Below are positions 34,681 through 49,163 of a DNA stretch of 64,000 nucleotides, one piece after another. Both the position numbers and the translations under genes were made by a program. A model generated the notes under the pieces. That model saw only the letters and a list, made by a program, of their open reading frames with translations. It was not told where the DNA came from and did not search any database. The stretch lies in contig JAGSHN010000018.1 in the NCBI GenBank assembly GCA_029855935.1, positions 1 through 64,000 on the forward strand, read 5' to 3'. The stretch's first letter is position 1; every line of letters starts with the position of its first letter. Origin of the DNA: Candidatus Thorarchaeota archaeon (GTDB taxonomy: Archaea > Asgardarchaeota > Thorarchaeia > Thorarchaeales > Thorarchaeaceae).

Positions 34681-37600
34681 CTATCGCTTCTTGATCAGGA
34701 ACAGGATCAAGATGACGACGACACCGACGCCGATACCGCCGAGCAGTCCAATGATCAGCGGATCGATACCCGGTGCGGGTGGCGGTGTAGTCGTGGTGGT
34801 TGTAGTCGTGGTGGTTGTGGTCGTGGTTGTCGGAATCGTGGTGGTTGTCGGCGTGTATCCACCAGCAGTGAAGCTGCTGGAGTACGCCACGTCGGACAGA
34901 CCCATCCAGTAGTCGCCCTGACCCGCAGTCGGGTTGACGGCCGGATCGTTGTCATAGACCCTGACCCTGACCACGTACGTGCTGAGGTGCTCGAACGGGG
35001 TGCTGTCCCAGACGTAGAACGTCTGAGTCAGATTGACGGCCAGCAGCTGGTACGTCTCACCACCGTCCTTCGAGACAGACACCTCGAAGTACAGGTCGTC
35101 ACCTGTGTTCCTGTCGTAGGCGTCCCAGGTGATGTTGACAAGGTTGCCAGTGATATGGGTCTGGACGTTCGACACGTCGGGTGCGAAGAAGTTCGCAAAG
35201 GTCAGTGACGCGTAGTTGATGTCGAACGCGATGTTGGTCTGAGTGAGAGCGCTGATCTGGACGGAGAACGTACCGTTCTTGAGGAACTGGTAGGTGTCGT
35301 AGGTGACACTCCGCCCAGTCTTGACTATGTCAGTACCAACACGAGTGTCGACAGTCAGCTTGTACTGACCAGTTGACAGGTCGTAGTCGAAGATACCGAC
35401 CATTATCGCACCGTCGTGGTCTGCAACGAACGAGCCGTGCTCGGGCTTGTTGCCAGTAGCCATCTGGCTACCGAGCAGGTTGTTCGCGTATGACCACGTG
35501 CTGTTGTCGGAGTCAGCCCACCAGGCCATGATGTCACAGTCACCATTGGTGAAGTCAACGGTCACTCTCACGGTGTCGCCAGCCTTGATGCCCTCGACCC
35601 TCTCCCAGGCAAACTGATCCAGCTGGATTGTGCCCGAGAATGGGTTATAGTTCGAGTCGGGGACGACAAGGTCGCCGATGTGTTGGTAGTAAACACCTGA
35701 CAGGAACGACACGGTGGTCTGTACCACCTCGTACTCAGGCATGTTTGGCAGATTGAACTGTGGGAATGTGGCGTTGACCACAGCGTGGTCACCAACAATG
35801 GTGTCGCCATCCGTTATTGGCACTGGGCTGGTCACGTCGTTGGCCGTGTAGGTGAAGATCAGATCACCCGCGCCACCAGTCAGCTGCTCGTAGACCATGA
35901 CCTCCAGCGTGTAGTTGACCGGCAGCATCACCGTGCCGTTCAGCCGGTTGGGATGCACGAAGATGTAGTAGTAGCCCACCGGACTGGTCATGTCGCTGAG
36001 GTCAGCGATCAGAGCTGTGCTGGTCGGTGTCAAGGCGTCGCTCGTCGCAATGGCCGCGCCCGTGGTGCTAAGGACCTCGACATGCATGTCGTTGCCAGTG
36101 TCAGCCCACTCAACGCGGACACCGAGGTATCCGGCCGTGTCGTACGGGTTGTAGACGACAAAGCTGCGGAAGTCCCAGTCGTCCGGATCGCTGTCCATGC
36201 ATCCGTAGACAGGGCTGTCGTATGGTGTCAGCTCAGCACCGAATCCGTTGACAACAGTGTTGACGTCGGTCACATTGGCGCTGAGGTTGGCCACGACCAT
36301 GTAGCTGTAGGGCAGCCTGAGAGAGTAGCCACCCTTGGCCAAGTTGATGTAGCCCTGGTGGATGCCAGCCTCGGCATCGTTAGGCACTGTCAGCGTGAAG
36401 TTCAGGCTGTTGTCAGTGCCTGGTGCCTGAATGGAGATCTCGGACGATGATACCTCCTCCCAGAAGATCACCGTCACGGTGAAGTTGTGGCCGGTTGCAT
36501 TCAGGTCCTCATCGAACACTGGGTCGTGAATGACCAGTGTCATGTTTCCGCTGAGTGCCGCAGCCAAGCTGGACCCGCTGACTGCAAATGGCATCATGTT
36601 GGTCGCGCTTGGGTCACTTGCGCTGGTGAGCCTGTGCAGCTCATTGCCGTCGGTGCCGTTCCAGAGGTTCGGATATCCGTCCGTGACGTTGTTGTCCTCC
36701 CAGTCATAGAGGAACATCCACGGCTCGGCTCCAGCGACCTCTGCGCTGTCAAATGCCACGCCAATTGTGACATAGCTGTAGGTTCCCATGTCTGTGTCGT
36801 AGACAGATGGCGTCAGCTGGTCACGCAGGTTGTAGAAGCCATAGGCCATGTCACCACTGACGTTTGCGTCAGTGTACCAGAAGGTTGTGTTCTCGAAGGT
36901 GTAGCGCTTTGCCATCTTGTAGTGCGTGGCACTGCTCACCCAGCCAGTACCATCGTCCAGCGTGCTGAAGAAGTCGCCGTAGATCTTCTGATGCACGGTG
37001 ACAGTTGCTCCAGGCCATACCTGGCCGAAGAAGACAGAGCCTTCCCACAGGTTGGTCGGATATGCGACTTCGGAGTTGTTCACAAACACGCCGAGGTAAG
37101 AACTAGGCAACACACCCCAGTAGTCCCACGCGTCCTGCATGAGAGCAGCGTGGTTCGCGAACGAGTCAGTGGAGTATGACACCCAGCCGTTGTTGTTTAC
37201 GGCGAAGTCGATCGCCTTTGCGGCGTTTATCCTTCCGAAGCCCTGTGTTGCAGGATCATAGCCGAGGTCGTCCGCAGTCTGCTGCAGTATCATCTTGGCC
37301 TGTGGTCCGGTGATTCCAGATGCCGCCTCGTAGAGGAGTGCAGCAACACCAGCTGCCACGGGAGCAGCCTGGCTGGTACCCGCGAAGAGGGTGTACTGCA
37401 TGTCATAGCCAGCCGTCTTGTCCCACCACTGACCAGCAGACCAGAACTGCGCGCAGTACGGAGCGTACCACGGGACTGCCGCGTAGCCGGCAAGGCCTGG
37501 TGCAAGCACGTCAGGCTTCACGTAGCCAGACACCAGCGGACCCTTGCTTGTGAAGCTGGCAATACCCTCGTAGGGCTGCGTTGGACCGTAGAGGTACTCC

Positions 37601-39504
37601 AGCCAGTGGCTCGACGTGGACGCACCAATAGTCAGCACTGCAGGTGATGAGCCAGGTGGCCCAATAGTCATGAAGCCGGCACCCTCGTTTCCTGCAGAGA
37701 ACACGTGCAGGATACCAGGATAGCTGCTATCGAGGATTCCTGGCGTGGAGAGTATGGTCCAGGTCATTGACAGATAGTCAAACTCGCTGTACGGCTCCGT
37801 GATCCAACCCCAAGAGTTGGTCACGAGGTCAGACTGGTGATTGCCAGTGTAGTAGAACTCACCGCTTGTCGCGTTGTAGTCGAAACCACAGACCCACAGG
37901 TAGGCACCGTAGTCGTCGCCTCTTGTGAGGGCTCTGGCGGAGATTATGTCCGCATCAGGAGCAATACCTGGCAGAGTGAAGTTCTGACCAGTGTCCTCAT
38001 TCTGGTAGGTCAGCACACCAGCTGACGCCACGTGAGAGGCGGTCGCCGTACCGTGGGTACCGGCATCGAAGTACAGTGAGAGGGCGGTACCGTTCTCGAA
38101 GTGGTAGAACCCGTCAATGTAGGCGGGATAGCCGAAGTCCTGTAGCCAGCCCGGCACGAAGCCAGAGGCAATGGCACCCAAGCTGAAGTCGTCGATACCG
38201 TCACCGTCGAAGTCGTGTGCGACAATCGGGTGGCTCTCGTCATAGATCTCACCGGCCGCGATCTCGTCTGTGAAGTCCCAGTCGAAGGTCGCGATGATGT
38301 GGTATGCATCAATGATGTTGGTGAGATCGTACGACTCGTAGTAGAAACCACCAGTCCAGAACTTGTTCCAGCCGTTGGCGTCGTCCCAGTTGATGACAAC
38401 CGCCCAGTCGTTCGTGCTCGTGTAGTTGAACACGATTGCTGGAGCGAAGAGCTTTGCATATGGGTGGAACCGCTGCTGCATGACCCAGTTGATGTAGTAG
38501 TCACCATTGACTATCGATGGGTCAGGCATCTTCCAGTCGTTCCAGAGATAGTTCTGGATCAGGTTGTCTGCACCCTCGATACCCCAGTAGTAGGCGTAGA
38601 GATAGACGAAACCAACCCTGTGGACGTACGGGGTGTTCGCATCACCATCGCCTATCAGGTACCTCGGGCCAGCCTCACCGCTGTAACCGTAGTTCAGCAG
38701 CGGGTCCCAACCAGTCACATTCAGATAGAGGGCGCTATCCGAACCAGTGTAGGTGAGTAGGTGGTACGGATCTGCCAGCCACTCCGTCGCATTGACAACA
38801 GTACCGTTAGCGATGTAGAATGCCGGTACAACACCGTAGCCTGATGGGTCAAAAGCACCACCAAAGGCATGCTGAAGCTCGGGGTTGCCGAAGTCAGCAC
38901 CAGTGTCGATGTGACCAACCTTGACGCCAGTACCGTCGTAGTTGGTTGCAGGAGCAGTTGTCGCACCGACAACCTCCTTGATCTTGTACATGTCCACACC
39001 GACGCCTGGCTGTGAGGTGTCGCCGGTCATCCTTGCAAGGTCGTCAGCCACATTCAGCTTGAACAGGTCAGCCTCGATTGAGCTGACGCCGTTCACCCTG
39101 GCCAGTGCGTCGAGGGCATCAGTGTTGGGGATGTACACGTTCCAGACCTTGAAGAATCCAAGGTCCGCCTTCCAGTGCACCTCGACAATATCCGCCACTG
39201 CGTCGACATCGGCCCACGGGGTCATGACGACGAGCGCGCGGACGCGGCCATCAGGGCTTGTGACGACCCTGTCGCTTAGCACTCCCGAGTCAATCCAGCT
39301 GGCCAAGGCATTGTCAATCTTGGCCGTATAGCCCGGCTGCGCAACGTTGTCATACCATTGCTGCAGCGTGTCTCGGGCCTCTGGACTGAGCTGAGGAGCG
39401 CTGGCCGGTTCTGCTGTCGTTATGGGAGCAGCTGGAGCCAGCAGCATAGTCAGGCTCAGCGCTGCCATAAGAAACAGAACTGCCGCTGTTCTTATCTTGT
39501 TCAT
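34681..39504 (-). CDS. Secreted, membrane-anchored subtilisin-like (S8) protease, 1607 aa
   Basis: Signal peptide; D: VKVGHIDTGADFGNP, H: GTHGTATASHVAS, S: GTSQAAPVAAGVAALL; Thr-rich linker then TM IIGLLGGIGVGVVVILILFLIKKR. Confidence 0.93.
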   Translation of the reverse strand: MNKIRTAAVLFLMAALSLTMLLAPAAPITTAEPASAPQLSPEARDTLQQWYDNVAQPGYTAKIDNALASWIDSGVLSDRVVTSPDGRVRALVVMTPWADVDAVADIVEVHWKADLGFFKVWNVYIPNTDALDALARVNGVSSIEADLFKLNVADDLARMTGDTSQPGVGVDMYKIKEVVGATTAPATNYDGTGVKVGHIDTGADFGNPELQHAFGGAFDPSGYGVVPAFYIANGTVVNATEWLADPYHLLTYTGSDSALYLNVTGWDPLLNYGYSGEAGPRYLIGDGDANTPYVHRVGFVYLYAYYWGIEGADNLIQNYLWNDWKMPDPSIVNGDYYINWVMQQRFHPYAKLFAPAIVFNYTSTNDWAVVINWDDANGWNKFWTGGFYYESYDLTNIIDAYHIIATFDWDFTDEIAAGEIYDESHPIVAHDFDGDGIDDFSLGAIASGFVPGWLQDFGYPAYIDGFYHFENGTALSLYFDAGTHGTATASHVASAGVLTYQNEDTGQNFTLPGIAPDADIISARALTRGDDYGAYLWVCGFDYNATSGEFYYTGNHQSDLVTNSWGWITEPYSEFDYLSMTWTILSTPGILDSSYPGILHVFSAGNEGAGFMTIGPPGSSPAVLTIGASTSSHWLEYLYGPTQPYEGIASFTSKGPLVSGYVKPDVLAPGLAGYAAVPWYAPYCAQFWSAGQWWDKTAGYDMQYTLFAGTSQAAPVAAGVAALLYEAASGITGPQAKMILQQTADDLGYDPATQGFGRINAAKAIDFAVNNNGWVSYSTDSFANHAALMQDAWDYWGVLPSSYLGVFVNNSEVAYPTNLWEGSVFFGQVWPGATVTVHQKIYGDFFSTLDDGTGWVSSATHYKMAKRYTFENTTFWYTDANVSGDMAYGFYNLRDQLTPSVYDTDMGTYSYVTIGVAFDSAEVAGAEPWMFLYDWEDNNVTDGYPNLWNGTDGNELHRLTSASDPSATNMMPFAVSGSSLAAALSGNMTLVIHDPVFDEDLNATGHNFTVTVIFWEEVSSSEISIQAPGTDNSLNFTLTVPNDAEAGIHQGYINLAKGGYSLRLPYSYMVVANLSANVTDVNTVVNGFGAELTPYDSPVYGCMDSDPDDWDFRSFVVYNPYDTAGYLGVRVEWADTGNDMHVEVLSTTGAAIATSDALTPTSTALIADLSDMTSPVGYYYIFVHPNRLNGTVMLPVNYTLEVMVYEQLTGGAGDLIFTYTANDVTSPVPITDGDTIVGDHAVVNATFPQFNLPNMPEYEVVQTTVSFLSGVYYQHIGDLVVPDSNYNPFSGTIQLDQFAWERVEGIKAGDTVRVTVDFTNGDCDIMAWWADSDNSTWSYANNLLGSQMATGNKPEHGSFVADHDGAIMVGIFDYDLSTGQYKLTVDTRVGTDIVKTGRSVTYDTYQFLKNGTFSVQISALTQTNIAFDINYASLTFANFFAPDVSNVQTHITGNLVNITWDAYDRNTGDDLYFEVSVSKDGGETYQLLAVNLTQTFYVWDSTPFEHLSTYVVRVRVYDNDPAVNPTAGQGDYWMGLSDVAYSSSFTAGGYTPTTTTIPTTTTTTTTTTTTTTTPPPAPGIDPLIIGLLGGIGVGVVVILILFLIKKR
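34786..34850. repeat. Threonine-codon microsatellite (poly-Thr stalk)
   Basis: Imperfect 15-nt direct repeats gtagtcgtggtggtt on + strand encoding TTTTTIPTTTTTTTTTTTTTTTPP on - strand. Confidence 0.8.
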
Positions 39505-39544
39505 TTTTCCTCAGTCTCCTCACATGTTGACACCGAGAACTGCA

Positions 39545-39564
39545 AGTGCACTATATGGTGCACT
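39545..39564. promoter_or_regulatory. Inverted repeat AGTGCAC-tatatg-GTGCACT upstream of the 1607-aa subtilase
   Basis: Perfect 7-bp arms flanking a TATA-like hexamer about 40 bp upstream of the start codon. Confidence 0.4.
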
Positions 39565-39934
39565 CTCTTGCGATAATGAACCTCCAATCCTCCGAGGCGG
39601 TTGCTCCGCCTCAAGAGCCAATCTCCTCGTTCGCGTTCTCCGGTATCGGGTGTGATTGTTGGTGTTCAGGAACTCGGTCATTATTAAGGATTGCGACTCA
39701 TAGAGAGGCCACTCCAACTCAATATCCATCAGATTCCGTAGTCGGCGTGCGATTGCTGATATCTAGCTGTGCACAGTCGGATATCATAAATACTCATTTA
39801 ACGAATATATTAAAGATGGGGGGAGGGGTGTCGAGACGAGAACGCAACACCCGTAGTGGCATAAACAAGAGGCGACAATCGAAACGGGGGAAACGTGTGG
39901 TAGTGATTCAGGGAGGAGCGGGAGGTTGACATAG

Positions 39935-39976
39935 TGAAGAGAGGCGGTCGCCCAGACGGACGACCTGAGGGAGAAA
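39935..39976 (-). terminator. Hairpin downstream of the TM/coiled-coil gene
   Basis: Minus strand GGTCGTCC-gtct-GGGCGACC followed by pyrimidine-rich gcctctcttc. Confidence 0.35.
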
Positions 39977-39979
39977 CAC

Positions 39980-41077
39980 CTACTCGCTGCCAGAGCGGGC
40001 CATCCGCTTTATGCTGTCGACAACCTCGTGCACCATCATGACTGCACCGATGAGTTCCACGCGAGGCTCTTCGGTCTTTGCCTCGGGCCTCGATATCCGG
40101 CCAACCGACCGGCCCATGTTCTCAATGATCGTGGCCAGCGTCTTCTTTGCACTGTCGTCGAGAGAGCTGCCCTCGACCTGAGTGATCAGCTCAGCCAGTT
40201 CGGATATCATGCTCTCGGTGACCTCGGCCGCAGTCTCTGCTCGCCGCGTAAAGCTCTCAATCCGGGCTTGGCACTCGTCCAGCTGTGCCTGAATCTTCTT
40301 CATCCGCTCGGCATCGGCACCGGGCGCGGCGCTCTGGAGCTTTGCCCTCAGTTCCTCGACCTCGGCCTGGAGTCTAGTTATCGTCTGGTCCTTCTTCGCA
40401 ATCGTCTCGAGTAGCTCGGACTCCATATCGGACCCTCCGCCCTCAGAGGGTGGTTGCGCAAGGAGGTCAGCCCGCTCCCTCTCAAGGTCGGAAACCTTCT
40501 GCTTGAGAGCAGTGAGCTCACCCTCGATGGCCGCAAGCTTCTCCTCCTTCTCATTGAGGAGATCCGCAAGCTGCTTTTTCTCACCCTCTAGTCTCTGGAC
40601 CTCACTCTCAAGCACCTTGGCGTTCTCGGAGGCCTCCTTCAGCTGCTGTCTCAGTTTGACAAAGTCGGGATCAGGAGGCGAGATGACGGAGTGGGCCAGA
40701 ACCAGAAATATCACGGCGACACCGGCGAGATAGGCGATACTTGAGAACACGCTTCCAAAGACGACGTTGGTCAGGCCTTGGACCACTGCGACAAAGGCGT
40801 ACCAAGATCCGAAGGTGAGCGTGTCAGGGCCCCACCAGACAGCTCCAAAACCAGCGTACAGTAGGACCAGACATGAGCCTATGACGAGCACAAGACCACT
40901 CAGGACCATCGCGTTACGCACTCGTGACTCTGGGTCGAGATGTCTCTGATAGAGCAAGAGAGTGATGCCGATGAAGATCATCGGTATTACGTAGGGCGCC
41001 ACAGCGATGATATCACTCATAGGAAACTCGAAATCAATCAATGCTTCCAGACCAGGACCGGGATTCAGACCGAGCAC
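39980..41077 (-). CDS. Multi-TM protein with long C-terminal coiled coil
   Basis: 4 N-terminal hydrophobic segments, then about 130 aa of heptad-rich sequence and a helical tail. Confidence 0.82.
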   Translation of the reverse strand: MLGLNPGPGLEALIDFEFPMSDIIAVAPYVIPMIFIGITLLLYQRHLDPESRVRNAMVLSGLVLVIGSCLVLLYAGFGAVWWGPDTLTFGSWYAFVAVVQGLTNVVFGSVFSSIAYLAGVAVIFLVLAHSVISPPDPDFVKLRQQLKEASENAKVLESEVQRLEGEKKQLADLLNEKEEKLAAIEGELTALKQKVSDLERERADLLAQPPSEGGGSDMESELLETIAKKDQTITRLQAEVEELRAKLQSAAPGADAERMKKIQAQLDECQARIESFTRRAETAAEVTESMISELAELITQVEGSSLDDSAKKTLATIIENMGRSVGRISRPEAKTEEPRVELIGAVMMVHEVVDSIKRMARSGSE

Positions 41078-41203
41078 GGATACTCCTCCTGCGTGTAGAG
41101 TGACTATGGAGAAGTGACGGATAAATCCTACGACCGCCTGCGGCTGGTCAGGCGGCCACGCATCACAACACTGGTCTGTGATTCTTGGTATGTCGAGTAT
41201 GTT

Positions 41204-41494
41204 CTATTCTCGCCACAGACGGGCGGCCTCAAGCTCGTGGTCCTCCACTATGAGCTCGAGCGCCTTGATTAGGCGAGCAGTTTCTGAGATGGACAGGAGA
41301 AAGGCACCCTTGATGTCTCTGTCCTCACCCAGTGTGAGGCGGACCTTTCCCTCGTTTACCCATCCCTCTTCGCTCTTCTCGGGCGGCTGAAACTGGATCT
41401 CAAGCCACGTGCGACGGGTCTGCCCCGTGCTACGGTCTTCGAAGAAGTGCTTGATCTGTAGCCTACGTTCATAGTTAGAAGGTCTTGTTCCCAT
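41204..41494 (-). CDS. Small conserved-looking hypothetical protein (96 aa)
   Basis: ATG at 41494: MGTRPSNYERRLQIKHFFEDRSTGQTRRTWLEIQFQPPEKS...; upstream part of the ORF-track entry looks non-coding. Confidence 0.65.
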   Translation of the reverse strand: MGTRPSNYERRLQIKHFFEDRSTGQTRRTWLEIQFQPPEKSEEGWVNEGKVRLTLGEDRDIKGAFLLSISETARLIKALELIVEDHELEAARLWRE

Positions 41495-41698
41495 CTTTTC
41501 ATCAATCCTGTCTTGCTCTTGTTCCCCTGACTCAGGGGAGTCAGTCGCTCTTGTCCAAGAACATGCGTACAGACGGATAAGACTGAATCTCTCGGTGGGG
41601 GCGAGTCTGAAGTGACATATGTGGACATCGTACAGAAGACGTAGGCAAGACAAGGCTTAATTGCAGACGCGATGACCGGGGCTATCAAAGGGCGGTAG

Positions 41699-44605
41699 AT
41701 GATACCAATGACGAGGCCGATCAAGATACAGGCTCTACTTGTGCTTCTGATGATGATCTCACCACTCTTCGCCCCCCTCATTCAGCAGGGGACAGCCCGA
41801 GTCACGCCCTCGACAAGACTCGGTGTTCTCTCGCCCACGTTGGCGGACCGGATAGCGGAGGAACGTGATGACACCCCCATACCAATCATTGTGAGATTCC
41901 CTGACGGGACAGATCCCACCACAATGCTGAGCATCATTGAGACCTATGGCAGAGGTCTCACGGTGAGACATGTCTTTCATCTCGTACCATATGTCTCAGC
42001 CTATGCTCCCGCAAGAGCTATCCACGCACTCGCGTCTTCAGGGCTGGTGACACAGGTCGGCCTCGACAAGAGAGTATCGGCCCTAGAGACTGCGCCAGAG
42101 CCAGTCTTCGAGGCAGAGAGTAACGTCACGTATCTCCACCCGACTGAGGCACTGGACGTGCGCCCGCTCTGGGAGCAAGGGTACAACGGTTCGGGTATCA
42201 CGGTGGCTGTGCTAGATAGCGGCGCCTGGGGAGGCCACCCGGATCTTCAGGGTCGAATCATAGGCTTCAAGGACCTCGTAAATGGCTTGGACGATATGAA
42301 TCCAAGTGATGGTATTGACGCGTACGATGACAATGGCCACGGCACAGCGACTGCTTGGCTCGTTGGAGGCACGGACAACGGTACGGGTATCTACAGCGGA
42401 ATCGCCCCGGGTGCTGACCTTCTCATCATCAAGATACTCGACGAGGATGGTACGACCGATCTATCGACAATGGCACAGGGTATAGAAACCGCTGTCGATC
42501 TCGGTGCTGACATCATCAGTCTCAGTGTCGGAGGCCAGTGGGAGGACACTGGCGAGGATGTGGCAGTCGAGAGCTGTGAGTCTGCGGTGGATGCTGGCGT
42601 CACTGTAGTGGTGGCCGCGGGCAACTCAGGACCTGCGGCCGAGACCATAGCCACACCGGGTGTTGCCACACGGGTCATCACTGTTGGGGCATCAATAGGA
42701 GACGGTGGCGTGATAGCCTTCAGCTCCAGGGGACCGGTCGTACGGACTCAGTCAGCCCCGCTCGGTAGAATCGTCAAGCCAGACATTGTTGCTCCGGGCT
42801 ACGAGGTGTTCTCAGGGAGATGGCCGAATGCCAGCGTTGCAGAGTATCCAGCGTACAACTCCACACAGTATGGCGGGCTCTACACAAGATGGTCAGGAAC
42901 GTCGGCAGCGACGCCGCAGATTGCGGGCGTTGCAGCTCTGCTCAAACAGAAATTCCTCACGTTGAACCCGCTCACCACAAAGGCCGCTATTATGGCGGGG
43001 GCCAACGACTTGCGTCAAGACCCAATGGCGCAGGGTGCTGGGCTTGCCAACGCAACGAGAGCAGCAGAGGTGATTCAAGAGACCTCAAGGATGATCACCA
43101 TCCTAGCCCCGAGGAGATACCCGACACTGCCCGAGGGACGGAATGCGTTCATCGTGGGCGAAGAGCGGGCACCTCTGAACGCAACGGTGATATCGACCGT
43201 GCGATACGAGAACACCGAAGTAGTGGTCAACGGCAACGTGAGCCAGTTCATCACGGTATCGCCGAGCACTTTTCTCACCAGGGTGGGCTACACATTCTTC
43301 ACCATCGGCCTCACAATACCGGACAATCTTCCCCTGTCCGCAGCCGGAAGGTACCTCGGCAATCTCACGCTGGTCACCGACTCGAACGTCATCGCAACAA
43401 TGGAGCTTGATCTTGCCATCACAACCTTTGGAGGGCGTGTGCTCATAGACATGTCGCATCACAGTCTGGACGATCCAGATGACCCATCGTACTACAGCTA
43501 CTTCAAGGACTATCTACGGGCCCGGGGAATTGTCAGTTCTTGGCTTGGCGACCCTCAGAATCCAGTGCTGGCCACTGACAGCACTCTCGGGGACGCGGAC
43601 GCCTTCCTCGTAATGGACACGGAGGTGCCCTACGCCCCTGAGGAGATCGATGCCATCCATCAATTCGTCGAGGATGGAGGGGTCCTCATAGTGCTCTCGG
43701 AATACTATGACAGTGAAACGGGTCAGGCCTCATTTGCAATCGACTCTTACAACGAACTGCTACAGCCGTACGGCATACAGTGCGAACGTTATACAACAGG
43801 CTACGTGCCATTCTCAGACTCAGGAATAGCATACGGCGTCGGCTATGGCGGCGTGGTGGACAACTCGTCGCCGCTGATGGACGACGTTGAGAGACTATAC
43901 ATCCTGATGGGAAGCGCGTTGACTGTTGATGAGAACAACTCAAATGCGCGGGGGCTCTTTTGGACAGACTCTACGAAGAGGCACGCACTCGTCGCGACCG
44001 CCACTGAAGGCAAGGGACAGGTGCTTGTGATAGCGGACGGCTCCACACTCTATGATACAACCATCTATGATGCCATCAGGTCTGGTGCCGATAATCTCAA
44101 GTTCCTTGAGAATGTCGCGTCATGGATTAATCCTGTCAGACCCCGAGTCTATGATGTCATACTTGAGGCAGGAGAGATAGGCGAGACGGCGAACCTGACC
44201 GCGTATATCTTTGATGACGACCTTGAGGACGTGAGGATCACGGTCACGACCCCGCTGGGCGAGCTCGTCAACACCACGATGACTGAAACTCTCGGCTACA
44301 GGTACCACGTGAACTTCACAATGGCAAGCGCAGGATTCTATGATGTGACTATTGTGGCCCGCGACAGCGCTGGCAACGTACGCACGTTCACAAAGACAAT
44401 ACTGGTGCCAGTCGAACCCGTTGATGAGTCGTTCGCTAGAAATGTCATGATTGCTCTTCTTGCCGTTGCAGGACTCGCTCTATGCTATGTCGCGGTGATC
44501 AAGTTCGGAGTGCGAAGACCAAGAGTCAGACGGCGAAGTGAGGACGAGGAGTGGGAGATACCGATAGCTCCCCCCGGGCAGGGGGCTCCACCAGAGATAG
44601 AGTGA
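41699..44605 (+). CDS. Membrane-anchored subtilisin-like (S8) protease with C-terminal S1P (MBTPS1)-like module
   Basis: Signal peptide; D: VAVLDSGAWGGHPDLQ, H: DDNGHGTATAWLVGG, S: GTSAATPQIAGVAALL; RVLIDMSHHSLDD...DAFLVMDTEVPYAPEEIDAIHQFVEDGGVLIVLSEYYD; C-terminal TM and basic tail. Confidence 0.93.
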   Translation: MIPMTRPIKIQALLVLLMMISPLFAPLIQQGTARVTPSTRLGVLSPTLADRIAEERDDTPIPIIVRFPDGTDPTTMLSIIETYGRGLTVRHVFHLVPYVSAYAPARAIHALASSGLVTQVGLDKRVSALETAPEPVFEAESNVTYLHPTEALDVRPLWEQGYNGSGITVAVLDSGAWGGHPDLQGRIIGFKDLVNGLDDMNPSDGIDAYDDNGHGTATAWLVGGTDNGTGIYSGIAPGADLLIIKILDEDGTTDLSTMAQGIETAVDLGADIISLSVGGQWEDTGEDVAVESCESAVDAGVTVVVAAGNSGPAAETIATPGVATRVITVGASIGDGGVIAFSSRGPVVRTQSAPLGRIVKPDIVAPGYEVFSGRWPNASVAEYPAYNSTQYGGLYTRWSGTSAATPQIAGVAALLKQKFLTLNPLTTKAAIMAGANDLRQDPMAQGAGLANATRAAEVIQETSRMITILAPRRYPTLPEGRNAFIVGEERAPLNATVISTVRYENTEVVVNGNVSQFITVSPSTFLTRVGYTFFTIGLTIPDNLPLSAAGRYLGNLTLVTDSNVIATMELDLAITTFGGRVLIDMSHHSLDDPDDPSYYSYFKDYLRARGIVSSWLGDPQNPVLATDSTLGDADAFLVMDTEVPYAPEEIDAIHQFVEDGGVLIVLSEYYDSETGQASFAIDSYNELLQPYGIQCERYTTGYVPFSDSGIAYGVGYGGVVDNSSPLMDDVERLYILMGSALTVDENNSNARGLFWTDSTKRHALVATATEGKGQVLVIADGSTLYDTTIYDAIRSGADNLKFLENVASWINPVRPRVYDVILEAGEIGETANLTAYIFDDDLEDVRITVTTPLGELVNTTMTETLGYRYHVNFTMASAGFYDVTIVARDSAGNVRTFTKTILVPVEPVDESFARNVMIALLAVAGLALCYVAVIKFGVRRPRVRRRSEDEEWEIPIAPPGQGAPPEIE

Positions 44606-44625
44606 CGATTCCAAGCCCCGCTGGC

Positions 44626-45918
44626 TCATTCAATGGGTCCAAGTACGTGCTCCAGATACGAACGCAGCGCAGCGTGCCTGAAGGGCGGGAGTGGGTGCTC
44701 GGACAATGTCGACCCGATCTTCACGCGGTTCAGCAACTGAATTCCCACTCGCGAGGCCATTCGGCTCGAGATCACCTGCCCGCCCACTAGTCGGCCTCCC
44801 GGCGTCGTCAGAAGAGCCACATCAGTGAACTCCGCGCTGTCCCTCAGGAAATGAGCCGAAACTTCGACTCCGAGCGACTTGGCAACGGCTGTGGACTCCC
44901 CGACCGTGACGATCTCGGTTCCGAAGATCCGGTCATACTGGAATCTCAGGAGTACATCATCATAGAGCCTGTCCTTGCCAAGCGCTGCCGAGGCAGCCTG
45001 ACGACCTGCCCGTGCTGCAGTGCTGCCGACAGGCATCAAGAGAGGTCGGCCGGTCAGAAAGTCCCGCATCTCGACACAGTCACCAGCAGCATAGACGTCT
45101 CTGCTCGACGTTCTCATGTACTCGTCGACAACAATACCTCCAAGCGCACCAACCTCAAGACCAAGCGCGCGTGCCAGAGTCGTGCTAGGGCGCACGCCCG
45201 TGGCGAGGACGACGAGGTCGCAATCAATCGTCTCGTTCCCAAGATCTACTGCACGTACCCGACTGTCACCGACCAGTCTCTTCAGCGGACTGTCTTCGTG
45301 TACGGCCACGTCTCCGGGAAGACGTGCCAATAGACGGTCGGTCATCTCCGGCTCCAGTAGCCGACCGAGAACACGAAACGCCTCTACTATGTGAACCTCA
45401 AGTCCCAGGTTTCGGAGCCGTTCCGCTGTCTCAAGTCCGCTGAAACCTGCGCCCACCACTGTGGCGGTTGAGGCCCCCTCGGCGGCCTCCGAGATGCGCA
45501 TTGCGTCTGCAAGGCCCCTCAGAGTGAAGACGCCATTGAGATCAACGCCCGGAACTGGAGGTACTAGAGGCTCACCACCAGTGGCGAGAATCAGCCGGTC
45601 GTAGCTGATAGTCTCCTGCGGGCTGTCTCCGCCATCAACATCGGTAGCGACGAGCGAGTGCGACTGTGTGTCACCACCGATCACGCGCAGTCCCTGGCGC
45701 AGAACTATTCCCCTGTCAGTCAAGGAATCGGGTGACCAATAGTCTATCTCTAGTCCGTGATCGTCACGATGACGGAATGCTCTCGTCACTCCGGGCTTGC
45801 GATATGCAGGGAGCCGATCTGCTGAGACTATTTCAACATCGATGTCTGGTGACAGAGTCTTTGCGGTCACAGCGGCCGATGCTCCGGCGGGGCCGTACCC
45901 AACGATCACAATCTTCAT
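44626..45918 (-). CDS. FAD/NAD(P)-dependent pyridine nucleotide-disulfide oxidoreductase (NADH oxidase/CoA-disulfide reductase-like)
   Basis: MKIVIVGYGPAGASAAVTAK, LILATGGEPLVPPVPG, VVGAGFSGLETAERLRNLGLEVHIVE, YAAGDCVE. Confidence 0.92.
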   Translation of the reverse strand: MKIVIVGYGPAGASAAVTAKTLSPDIDVEIVSADRLPAYRKPGVTRAFRHRDDHGLEIDYWSPDSLTDRGIVLRQGLRVIGGDTQSHSLVATDVDGGDSPQETISYDRLILATGGEPLVPPVPGVDLNGVFTLRGLADAMRISEAAEGASTATVVGAGFSGLETAERLRNLGLEVHIVEAFRVLGRLLEPEMTDRLLARLPGDVAVHEDSPLKRLVGDSRVRAVDLGNETIDCDLVVLATGVRPSTTLARALGLEVGALGGIVVDEYMRTSSRDVYAAGDCVEMRDFLTGRPLLMPVGSTAARAGRQAASAALGKDRLYDDVLLRFQYDRIFGTEIVTVGESTAVAKSLGVEVSAHFLRDSAEFTDVALLTTPGGRLVGGQVISSRMASRVGIQLLNRVKIGSTLSEHPLPPFRHAALRSYLEHVLGPIE

Positions 45919-45920
45919 CG

Positions 45921-48900
45921 TCATACCTCTCTGCGCGCAGCTCTCTTGGTCCGCCACAGGACGATTGTAACTGTGACTGCAAACACTGCCCCCGCTGGGA
46001 CTATCACTCTCGAGTAGTCGGACACCAAGTGAAGGACTCCCATAGGCTCTTCGATTGTATCACCGAAGATTGTCACAACGACGGCGTAGGTCTCGTAGTC
46101 GCCGACAGGCATCGAGCCCGTAGACAGTGTCAGTCCGTACACACCGTCTTCTACGGTACGAGAGGCGGAGATATTCCAGACCGCCTCAGATGACAGCCTG
46201 AAAGACACGTACACGTGGTCCACGTAGGCCCAGCCCTCCACAGTGATTGAGGCCGTTATCATCTCATCTATGAGCGGACCGACTGCAACCGTATCTGCGC
46301 CCAGGACCGCAGAAACAATGGCGATATGCGGAGATGTTGCCTGCGACAAGAGCAGCGGCGGCAACGTGAACTGGCTGTGACCGTCAGTGACATCTATCAC
46401 AATCACAGGGTCGAAGCTGTGATTGACTGTAGTGAGGTCAATATCTATCGCCACATTCGCATCACCTGTGCTCCCACCTGAGAGGAGAGGAGTTCCATCC
46501 TCTGTGGATCCAGAGTAGACATGGTACGAGTACGCCATGCCTGTAGACGGAGTGTCAAGGTCCACCGCTGTGAATTGTGTGTGCCAGACCCCGTCATCAC
46601 CCAAGTTGGAGGAGAGTGAACACACCAGCGGCCGCCAAATGTCAGAGATCACGAGCGAGCCCGACGAGTCCGACTCGGGACCGGTTGTGCTCTCCACCGA
46701 TACCTCGAAGGTGAAGGAAGGTGCAAGACTGGTCAGCAGACGTACAAACAACGTGTTGGAACTGTTCCGGACAAAGGCGTTCAATGAGGACGCGACAAAG
46801 CTGCTCCCATCCCATTCGTACACGGACGCACTCCCTCCAGTGACATTGATGAGAAGATCCACGCCATTGTCGCCTGTACTGCTGGAGCTGTCACGGTCCA
46901 CTGCCAACGTTGTGATGGTACCACCCGTGATGTCAGGTGCACCCCTCATAGTGATGGCGAAGTGGGCCTCTTGGAGAGAGGAGAAGACGCGGACGTTGAC
47001 AATGTCGATATCCTCGGGAAGACCGTTGTTCTCGGCTGGACCGTACACAGGGTTGACACCAAGCCAGTCGCTAATGTCAACGTCTGGACCCCACGGGACT
47101 GGCATCACGTGTCGAACTGAGGCAATAGCACTGACAGCACCATAGCCCATATCAGGCCGTGGAGGTTCATCGTAATGACTGCCATCGAGACCACCAGCCC
47201 CCTCGACAATAGCGGAATAGGCCTCCCAGGAGTCGGCTGAGGAGGAGGCCTGAAGAACAAGTGCAAGCAGGCCAGCAACGTGTGGACTTGCCATACTCGT
47301 CCCGCTCTTGATTGTCCAGAGGGAGGTCAGGCTGTTCCTGGCCGCAGTGATGGCAACACCAGGGGCCACAACGATGGGGCGGACCGCTCCATCCACACGA
47401 GGCCCCCGCCCTGAGCTTGATGACACACTGTTGAGCGAGTCGTCCACGGACCCCACCGCGATCCCGAGGTCAGCAGTCCCAGGAGAACTGACAGTGCGCG
47501 AGTTGTCAATGTGATCGAGGAAACGGAGGTTTGTGAGCCCCCAGTTTCCAGGCCAGACATAGCAGTCCATCACAACGTCATCTCCGGACGGGTTCGAGAC
47601 CACGAGCGACCAGTCGCCATTCTGCCACTCTGGCTGCTGGGATGGCAGCTGGACGATGAGGCGATTGGTGCCCCTCACACTCCTGTCGGCAAAGACATAG
47701 GCGTGTATCTCGTCCTCGTCGAGTTCGGAACTCATCCCTACAATCTCGCTGAACGTACCAATCTCAATCTGGCGGCCTGAAGGCGTCCGGAGATAGATCT
47801 GCTCATCACTGTCATCGCTGTACCACAGCGCGTTGAAGAATGAGTACTCGTCGGGGTTGTTGACTGCGAACGAAACACTCGCCGTTTCGCCAGCGTTGAC
47901 AGCCAGCCGCGCATGTTTCTGCGTGCCTGCGAGATTCCCAGTGGCCACAGTTGTGAGTACGCCATACTTTCGCAGCGCCTCGCTCACAGCCGCATCCTCT
48001 ATGTCGGTGCCATCAAGAAAACCTAGGAAACTCGAGAAAGACATGTTGATGACGTCAGCGCCATTCTCAATGGCGAAGTATACGGCCTCGATTATGTCCG
48101 CACTCATCAGAGGACTGCGAATCACCATGAGATCGGCGCCCGGTGCGACACCAATCATCGAAGTGTACCCAGGCTGACCTGCAGCGACAATGGATGCCAC
48201 GTGAGTGCCATGCCCATTGCTGTCCCCGACAAAGAGGGCATCGGTTGTCAGATTGACCCCTCTGACGTACACGTTGTCAGCGAACTGATCGAAGAGTATG
48301 GACACCTTCGGCTCGCCAAGAAGCATCACATCCTCGTCAGGTAGGGAGATTACACCATTGTGGTCATGGTCAACGCCGACAAGCCAGCGATCACCCTCAG
48401 CATAGTCGAACCGGCTGTTGCCCCGTGTGTCGATGTACAGGTACTCGTTCTCGGTCTCGATGACCCCGTTATGTGCGACCTCGACGACCTGTATCGGCCC
48501 CTCGTCGTCATCGGCGATGGAGTCGTTGTCGAGGTCAGCATAGAACTCAGAACCCTGTTGAAGAACGTTGATGGGTCCCTGGGTAACCCTCCAGAACGAG
48601 GGATGCAGCCACTGCACACCAGTGTCGAGTACGGCGACCGTGACCCCGGAGCCATCAACGGACTCGCCATCCACCGAGAGAGAGTTGTGAACGTCAATTG
48701 CACCAATTGCCGGGACAGACGACTCCAATGAGGGGACGAACCGGCGATCCCCAGAGTAGGCCCCAGTCAGGCCCATCTGGCCAAGACCGGTGAGAGAGGA
48801 CTTGCTCGTGACGCGCACCACGTATATTGACCCAACGTGAACTACATTGCCGTTCCTCATCTCGGGTCTGATGCCAAGACTCCGCATTGCAGAGAGCTCA

Positions 48901-49163
48901 GATGCTGATAGCTCGTGCGAGAATCTCAACAGTGCACGTACACCCTGATCCCCGGTGGTTGCGGGCGAGCTCTGTAGCCTGTTGAGTTCCGCTGCCAGAG
49001 TGGAATCGACAATTGGCGAAACAGAGAGGGCAGGAGCAACGGACATCGGCGACCTGGGCACCTGTGTTGAGATCGCCCCTGCAGAGAATGGTGAGAGGGT
49101 ACAGAGTAGGACTGAGAATACCAGAAGAACCCTTGCAGACGACACGCGTAGCTTCACCGCCAT
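45921..49163 (-). CDS. Secreted, membrane-anchored subtilisin-like (S8) protease, 1080 aa
   Basis: D: VTVAVLDTGVQWLHPS, H: GDSNGHGTHVASIVAAG, S: GTSMASPHVAGLLALV; C-terminal TM VIVPAGAVFAVTVTIVLW. Confidence 0.93.
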   Translation of the reverse strand: MAVKLRVSSARVLLVFSVLLCTLSPFSAGAISTQVPRSPMSVAPALSVSPIVDSTLAAELNRLQSSPATTGDQGVRALLRFSHELSASELSAMRSLGIRPEMRNGNVVHVGSIYVVRVTSKSSLTGLGQMGLTGAYSGDRRFVPSLESSVPAIGAIDVHNSLSVDGESVDGSGVTVAVLDTGVQWLHPSFWRVTQGPINVLQQGSEFYADLDNDSIADDDEGPIQVVEVAHNGVIETENEYLYIDTRGNSRFDYAEGDRWLVGVDHDHNGVISLPDEDVMLLGEPKVSILFDQFADNVYVRGVNLTTDALFVGDSNGHGTHVASIVAAGQPGYTSMIGVAPGADLMVIRSPLMSADIIEAVYFAIENGADVINMSFSSFLGFLDGTDIEDAAVSEALRKYGVLTTVATGNLAGTQKHARLAVNAGETASVSFAVNNPDEYSFFNALWYSDDSDEQIYLRTPSGRQIEIGTFSEIVGMSSELDEDEIHAYVFADRSVRGTNRLIVQLPSQQPEWQNGDWSLVVSNPSGDDVVMDCYVWPGNWGLTNLRFLDHIDNSRTVSSPGTADLGIAVGSVDDSLNSVSSSSGRGPRVDGAVRPIVVAPGVAITAARNSLTSLWTIKSGTSMASPHVAGLLALVLQASSSADSWEAYSAIVEGAGGLDGSHYDEPPRPDMGYGAVSAIASVRHVMPVPWGPDVDISDWLGVNPVYGPAENNGLPEDIDIVNVRVFSSLQEAHFAITMRGAPDITGGTITTLAVDRDSSSSTGDNGVDLLINVTGGSASVYEWDGSSFVASSLNAFVRNSSNTLFVRLLTSLAPSFTFEVSVESTTGPESDSSGSLVISDIWRPLVCSLSSNLGDDGVWHTQFTAVDLDTPSTGMAYSYHVYSGSTEDGTPLLSGGSTGDANVAIDIDLTTVNHSFDPVIVIDVTDGHSQFTLPPLLLSQATSPHIAIVSAVLGADTVAVGPLIDEMITASITVEGWAYVDHVYVSFRLSSEAVWNISASRTVEDGVYGLTLSTGSMPVGDYETYAVVVTIFGDTIEEPMGVLHLVSDYSRVIVPAGAVFAVTVTIVLWRTKRAARREV

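Follow-up and report, generated by a model that had tools for sequence, protein, structure and literature searches.

The Golgi site-1 protease (S1P, also SKI-1 or MBTPS1; MEROPS S08.063; PDB 8uw8, 8uwc and 9csd) cleaves membrane-bound substrates after R-x-(L/V)-x, depends on SPRING, and turns on the cholesterol and stress genes of human cells. All over the eukaryotic tree S1P is found, and earlier work either leaves its origin open or takes it to be eukaryotic; a phylogeny of subtilases hypothesised a eukaryotic origin for SBT7, the S1P group (PMC6713707). In S1P, the P-like domain and in part the GIFT domain contact the partner SPRING (PMC11231238). The same paper cites Beatson and Ponting (2004) for the GIFT domain family. 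The other members of this family, IFT52, OST48, GldG (ABC_transp_aux) and DUF4350, have no protease domain, unlike the protein described here. For the catalytic domain and propeptide of that protein, the best sequence match in the PDB is the subtilase Tk-SP of Thermococcus kodakarensis (3afg), which gives no GIFT match. The C-terminus of Tk-SP is a β-jelly-roll domain, and the enzyme is not known to have a transmembrane helix.

Of all known archaea, the Asgard group is most closely related to eukaryotes, and we find that its members widely encode a membrane protease with the domain order of S1P, which suggests that the protease predates eukaryotes. A large survey of eukaryotic signatures in Asgard archaea reported subunits of the translocon, of TRAP and of OST; one of them is OST48, a GIFT protein present in Heimdallarchaeia. 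The word ‘protease’ is absent from its main text (PMC10307638). Among the papers listed in a full-text search, none linked Asgard archaea to site-1 protease and none on Thorarchaeota and subtilisin was relevant; subscription papers and preprints mostly lay outside its scope, so priority is not certain.

The window, which is the whole stretch of 64,000 nucleotides analysed here, comes from a Candidatus Thorarchaeota archaeon. An open reading frame on the forward strand (41699..44605) encodes 968 residues, and its translation agrees with the one quoted in the original prediction. The product is a type-I membrane subtilase of Thorarchaeia (Asgard), with a signal, a propeptide, an S8 domain, an Ig-like domain, a GIFT domain, a β-domain, a transmembrane helix and a basic tail in this order, all on the forward strand. 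We modeled it with AlphaFold from 35 sequences (pLDDT 86, pTM 0.78). The sequence begins with a hydrophobic signal or anchor helix (residues 1–34, 41699..41800), modeled as a helix at 6–29. The propeptide (residues 45–130, 41831..42088) is predicted to adopt a β-α-β-β-α-β fold, with strand 61–66, helix 73–83, strands 88–92 and 98–103, helix 105–112 and strand 119–127, and it aligns with the pro-region of Tk-SP. The Tk-SP_N-pro profile matches it with E 0.21, and the corresponding region of the Asgard relative L041 with E 1.9e-5.

The S8 catalytic domain (42176..43078) matches Pfam Peptidase_S8 (PF00082) over residues 164–441 at 2e-53, with 182 bits against a cutoff of 21.8. By alignment, the catalytic residues are D173 (42215), H214 (42338), the oxyanion residue N309 (42623) and S402 (42902). 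All four are invariant in 35 aligned homologs and line up with the catalytic motifs of S1P. The Pfam score above cutoff and the intact catalytic residues place the product in peptidase family S8A.

Downstream of S8, an Ig-like (P-like) β domain (residues 463–577, 43085..43429) takes the position of the third Ig-like domain of S1P. It is a β domain in the model and is collinear with S1P in both hhalign and Foldseek, and PF23094 (MBTPS1_3rd) gives no match to it. The GIFT (GATase-like) α/β domain follows (residues 578–815, 43430..44143), and then a C-terminal β domain (residues 816–904, 44144..44410), recognized in models and by weak PKD and Filamin matches; the Asgard relative L084 does not have this β domain. 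The transmembrane helix (residues 910–937, 44426..44509) is evident in the sequence and is a helix over the same residues in the model. The predicted cytosolic tail (44510..44602) carries the basic stretch RRPRVRRR, is modeled with low confidence, and ends in a P-P-x-I motif, which is a common C-terminal end of the tail in the Thorarchaeial family.

The original prediction had described an α/β module, a β-rich segment, one transmembrane helix and a basic tail after S8, in the order of human S1P, and both the parts and the order are borne out. S1P and the Thorarchaeial product share signal, propeptide, S8 with its D/H/N/S residues, a putative Ig/P-like domain, GIFT, C-terminal transmembrane helix and basic tail. 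The features of type-I topology found in S1P, namely the two terminal helices and the basic tail, are all present. Identity between the two proteins is about 20%. The product differs from S1P by the additional β domain between GIFT and the transmembrane helix and by a bacterial-type S8. Neither SPRING nor the substrates of S1P are known from archaea. The GIFT domain starts with ‘RVLWDQYH’ in S1P, ‘RVLIDMSHH’ in the product and ‘RVLWDQSH’ in its relative L039.

A structure comparison with S1P, which had been proposed as a check, gave S1P as the top PDB match in Foldseek for two Asgard models. For the product, S1P (9csd_A) came first with E 1.7e-39 over 762 columns at an rmsd of 10 Å, a high value because the orientation of the domains differs or is uncertain. 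For the compact L084, which comes from another Asgard family and, like L039, is about 818 residues long, 9csd_A again came first (1.3e-46, 711 columns), and TM scores of 0.57/0.62 suggest that the overall domain packing in the model is similar to that of S1P. At the sequence level, a full-length profile searched against the PDB ran from S8 into GIFT (151–693) in a single chain among the matches listed, that of S1P; the remaining matches listed end by about 460, where S8 ends.

On profile evidence, the α/β module is a GIFT domain, of the superfamily that includes S1P, IFT52, OST48 and GldG, and the S1P structure paper also names the corresponding module GIFT (PMC11231238). The module of the product alone matches DUF4350 (1.3e-5), ABC_transp_aux (1.7e-5) and MBTPS1_4th (0.016) in Pfam, all below cutoff. 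MBTPS1_4th (PF23090) gives 15 bits with the product against a curated cutoff of 27, and a search of the source genome with this profile found nothing above cutoff. With phmmer, the single module finds S1P as the sole molecule in the PDB with E<=10, at a non-significant E of 0.21. An identity as ThuA or glutaminase was considered and rejected, since GIFT, DUF4350 and IFT52 profiles dominate.

The result changes once relatives are added. An Asgard-only profile (A3) matches IFT52 at 5e-10 and S1P at 3e-8 in the PDB. The Asgard-only profile of Ig plus GIFT (A4), searched against all 177,635 distinct sequences of the PDB, matches IFT52 at 1.6e-20 and S1P at 9.8e-20, and the next match stands at 1e-4. 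The match in S1P spans Ig into GIFT (profile 67–316), whereas IFT52, matched just as strongly, lacks the Ig part and aligns over GIFT only. In hhalign, Asgard Ig plus GIFT aligns with S1P (identical to PDB 8uw8 over residues 1–980 of the human query) at P 4.5e-18 and GIFT alone at P 6.5e-17, and a further collinear alignment of Ig plus GIFT with S1P reaches P 8e-13. Taken by itself, the Ig domain falls short of significance (P 0.05); controls with shuffled S1P gave 0.14–0.82. In pairwise comparisons, the GIFT domain of S1P scores 22.2 against Asgard S8-GIFT proteins and 16.4 against other GIFT domains, and that of IFT52 has the opposite preference, with 29.5 against Asgard S8-GIFT and 43.1 against other, non-protease GIFT domains.

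The original prediction had called the likeness to S1P ‘far beyond generic’. This fails for the single sequence, where E is 0.21 and DUF4350 and ABC_transp_aux stand above MBTPS1_4th, and it holds with high significance for the family profiles. The D(T/S)E..PEEI match is not unique to S1P, because by profile the module is equally close to IFT52. The single-sequence ranking would suit an ordinary secreted or surface subtilase with a nutritional role, in which the module is a generic accessory and the likeness to S1P has no historical or functional meaning. The profile results, together with those on structure and distribution, count against this account, to which we return with the gene neighbourhood.

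A search for the module in other Asgard lineages detected Ig plus GIFT in 227 of the 228 genomes. S8 lies upstream of it in 34 of the 35 matches inspected, the remaining one being cut by the start of its contig. MBTPS1_4th exceeds its curated cutoff in 12 of the 228 Asgard genomes and in none of 14 controls; members that pass it include L077 (31 bits) and L076 (41 bits), the latter with the highest score of all. We consider a transfer of the gene from early eukaryotes to Asgard archaea highly improbable, given the deep divergence and the spread of Ig plus GIFT through nearly every Asgard genome, many families and several subfamilies.

In the outgroup of about 820 genomes (394 Halobacteriota, 250 Bacillota, 149 from another bacterial phylum and roughly 35 more, with Thermoproteota and Thermoplasmatota outside the sample), no inspected match combined S8 with GIFT. 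GIFT matches there reach at most about 110 bits. The full-length proteins of Halobacteriota and Bacillota with long reading frames and GIFT matches showed no hidden S8 among those inspected. In one phylum (reached via genome G249), a search run without a positive control gave no GIFT match, a result of little weight.

These data bear on whether S8-Ig subtilases gained GIFT twice, once among Asgard archaea and once on the eukaryotic stem, both parts being common and easily combined. The building blocks do exist apart: Halobacteriota and Bacillota have GIFT by itself or in different settings, and the S8 proteins of Methanothrix have an Ig-like domain and no GIFT. Against such independent assembly, the lack of the combination in the inspected outgroup matches indicates that the fusion is not frequent; the same domain order and position of the transmembrane helix in S1P and the Asgard proteins, and the similar packing of the L084 model, point the same way. 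We regard independent assembly as unlikely. Three Methanothrix loci (L181, L182 and L184), with S8 and an Ig-like domain, possibly resemble a state before GIFT was gained.

A phylogeny of S8 domains had also been proposed, and here the expected affinity to S1P was not found. The Thorarchaeial clade with our product joins bacterial and Methanothrix subtilases (97/97), apart from the other Asgard S8-GIFT proteins. The bacterial enzymes of this group (Bacillota, Calescibacterium and others), which we take to be AprX-like, are short, mostly 380–550 residues, and have neither Ig nor GIFT domains. Because the outgroup S8 sample was drawn with the full-length Thorarchaeial alignment, it favours S8 motifs of the Thor-like kind, and the grouping may look stronger than it is. 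S1P, represented in the trees by one eukaryotic sequence, lies outside the group on a long branch, placed without support; its nearest paths lead to the Asgard families f12, f3 and f13, which are more S1P-like than the Thorarchaeial protein. The AU test rejects a topology in which S1P and every non-Thor Asgard S8-GIFT protein form one clade (p 0.009). In pairwise comparison, the S8 of S1P scores 112.5 bits with Methanothrix and 112.3 bits with the Asgard L038. Taken with the 97/97 grouping, this means that the S8 domain of this particular gene behaves in the way that the original prediction had named as refuting it, by clustering with generic bacterial subtilases.

The GIFT tree separates S1P, on the side of Asgard S8-GIFT, from IFT52, although support for this split is weak (40/76), and in the combined tree S1P stands outside all Asgard groups, its position again without support. 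Separate gains of GIFT would fit the unsupported position of S1P in every tree and the grouping of the Thorarchaeial S8 with bacterial enzymes; the latter also suggests that S8 may be exchanged within the architecture.

The trees neither show nor exclude a single assembly before eukaryotes. The best explanation of the shared order, the profile homology, the similar packing and the absence of the combination in inspected outgroups is a single assembly of the S8-Ig-GIFT protein that predates eukaryotes and reached them by inheritance. We infer this as the most likely reading and hold it to be probable. The chances seem evenly balanced that eukaryotic S1P is a vertical descendant of an Asgard membrane protease of the S8-Ig-GIFT type. 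The opening cut of the SREBP/ATF6 pathway, so far regarded as eukaryotic in origin (PMC6713707), would then go back to a step of membrane-protein processing in the archaeal ancestor. If vertical descent is true, S1P would join the eukaryotic signature proteins with Asgard roots. In the Asgard-wide family, S1P has a tangible prokaryotic counterpart that can be examined for structure, specificity and role, and this turns the origin of Golgi regulated proteolysis into a testable question. The original prediction of an archaeal relative of S1P stands as regards Asgard origin, domain order, GIFT homology and the top structural neighbour; it does not extend to orthology, and the S8 is bacterial-like. 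We would assign the product to an S1P-like Asgard family and not treat it as an S1P ortholog; the name S1P is unsuitable for it because its S8 is not S1P-like.

With the full-length Thorarchaeial alignment as query, nearly all of the nearest named relatives of the product are Candidatus Thorarchaeota. A close homolog (E<=1e-60) occurs in 30 of the 37 genomes from its family, almost always with 47–58% identity. The gene sits among neighbours on the reverse strand: a large S8 subtilase (34681..39504), a membrane and coiled-coil protein (39980..41077), a small conserved protein (41204..41653), an FAD/NAD-dependent pyridine nucleotide-disulphide oxidoreductase (44626..45957, Pfam 1e-54) and the third S8 subtilase of the cluster (45921..49163). 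Where a Thorarchaeial contig extends far enough, the small protein is 60–81% identical, and a Pfam search gave no match to it. Across Thorarchaeia, almost every locus on a long enough contig has the gene order of 34681 to 49163, and the block has the appearance of a core locus passed on vertically. Its three membrane subtilases, the coiled-coil membrane protein and the small conserved protein recur together across Thorarchaeia.

Two further membrane subtilases close by, and a bacterial-like S8, could again speak for the nutritional enzyme introduced above. The conservation of the cluster across Thorarchaeia and of the architecture across Asgard argues instead for a housekeeping role in processing, and we judge the nutritional account to be quite improbable, more so than separate gains of GIFT. 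By analogy with known families, the product is probably an outward-facing, membrane-anchored processing protease, inhibited by its propeptide, with GIFT as a non-catalytic platform. After export, the active site would lie outside the cell, and the folded propeptide would inhibit S8 until autocleavage. The mature tethered enzyme may then carry out limited proteolysis on the ectodomains of proteins in the membrane or at the surface, with GIFT and the Ig-like strut serving as a putative docking and regulatory platform, in the way that the P-like domain of S1P and in part its GIFT domain contact SPRING. More speculatively, it might make the first of two signalling cuts, the second being left to an M50 (S2P-type) protease; the source genome encodes such enzymes. 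All 14 control genomes give M50 matches as well, which makes their presence uninformative for the most part and the two-step pathway no more than a possibility.

Several other Asgard members depart from this pattern. L205 (3487–7758), L206, L209, L210, L086 and L076, from families f4, f11, f23 and f25, form one S8-Ig-GIFT clade that keeps the catalytic Asp and His. Its oxyanion Asn is replaced by Asp and its catalytic Ser by Ala, Phe or Leu, and the S8 domain of those checked has no G-T-S motif; judged from these residues, they are probable pseudoproteases. In L038, L041, L042 and L077, from several other families, the C-terminus beyond the transmembrane helix is a zinc ribbon with a predicted cytosolic location, which could couple the protease outside to the inside of the cell. 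We also notice a second, short S8-Ig-GIFT form of 655–740 residues (L222, L223, L225, L226, L241 and L242), which keeps the catalytic residues where checked and has scant room for a propeptide before S8. The source genome carries two genes of this short form, at C10:19638-20390 and C19:45690-46445 (L241 and L242).
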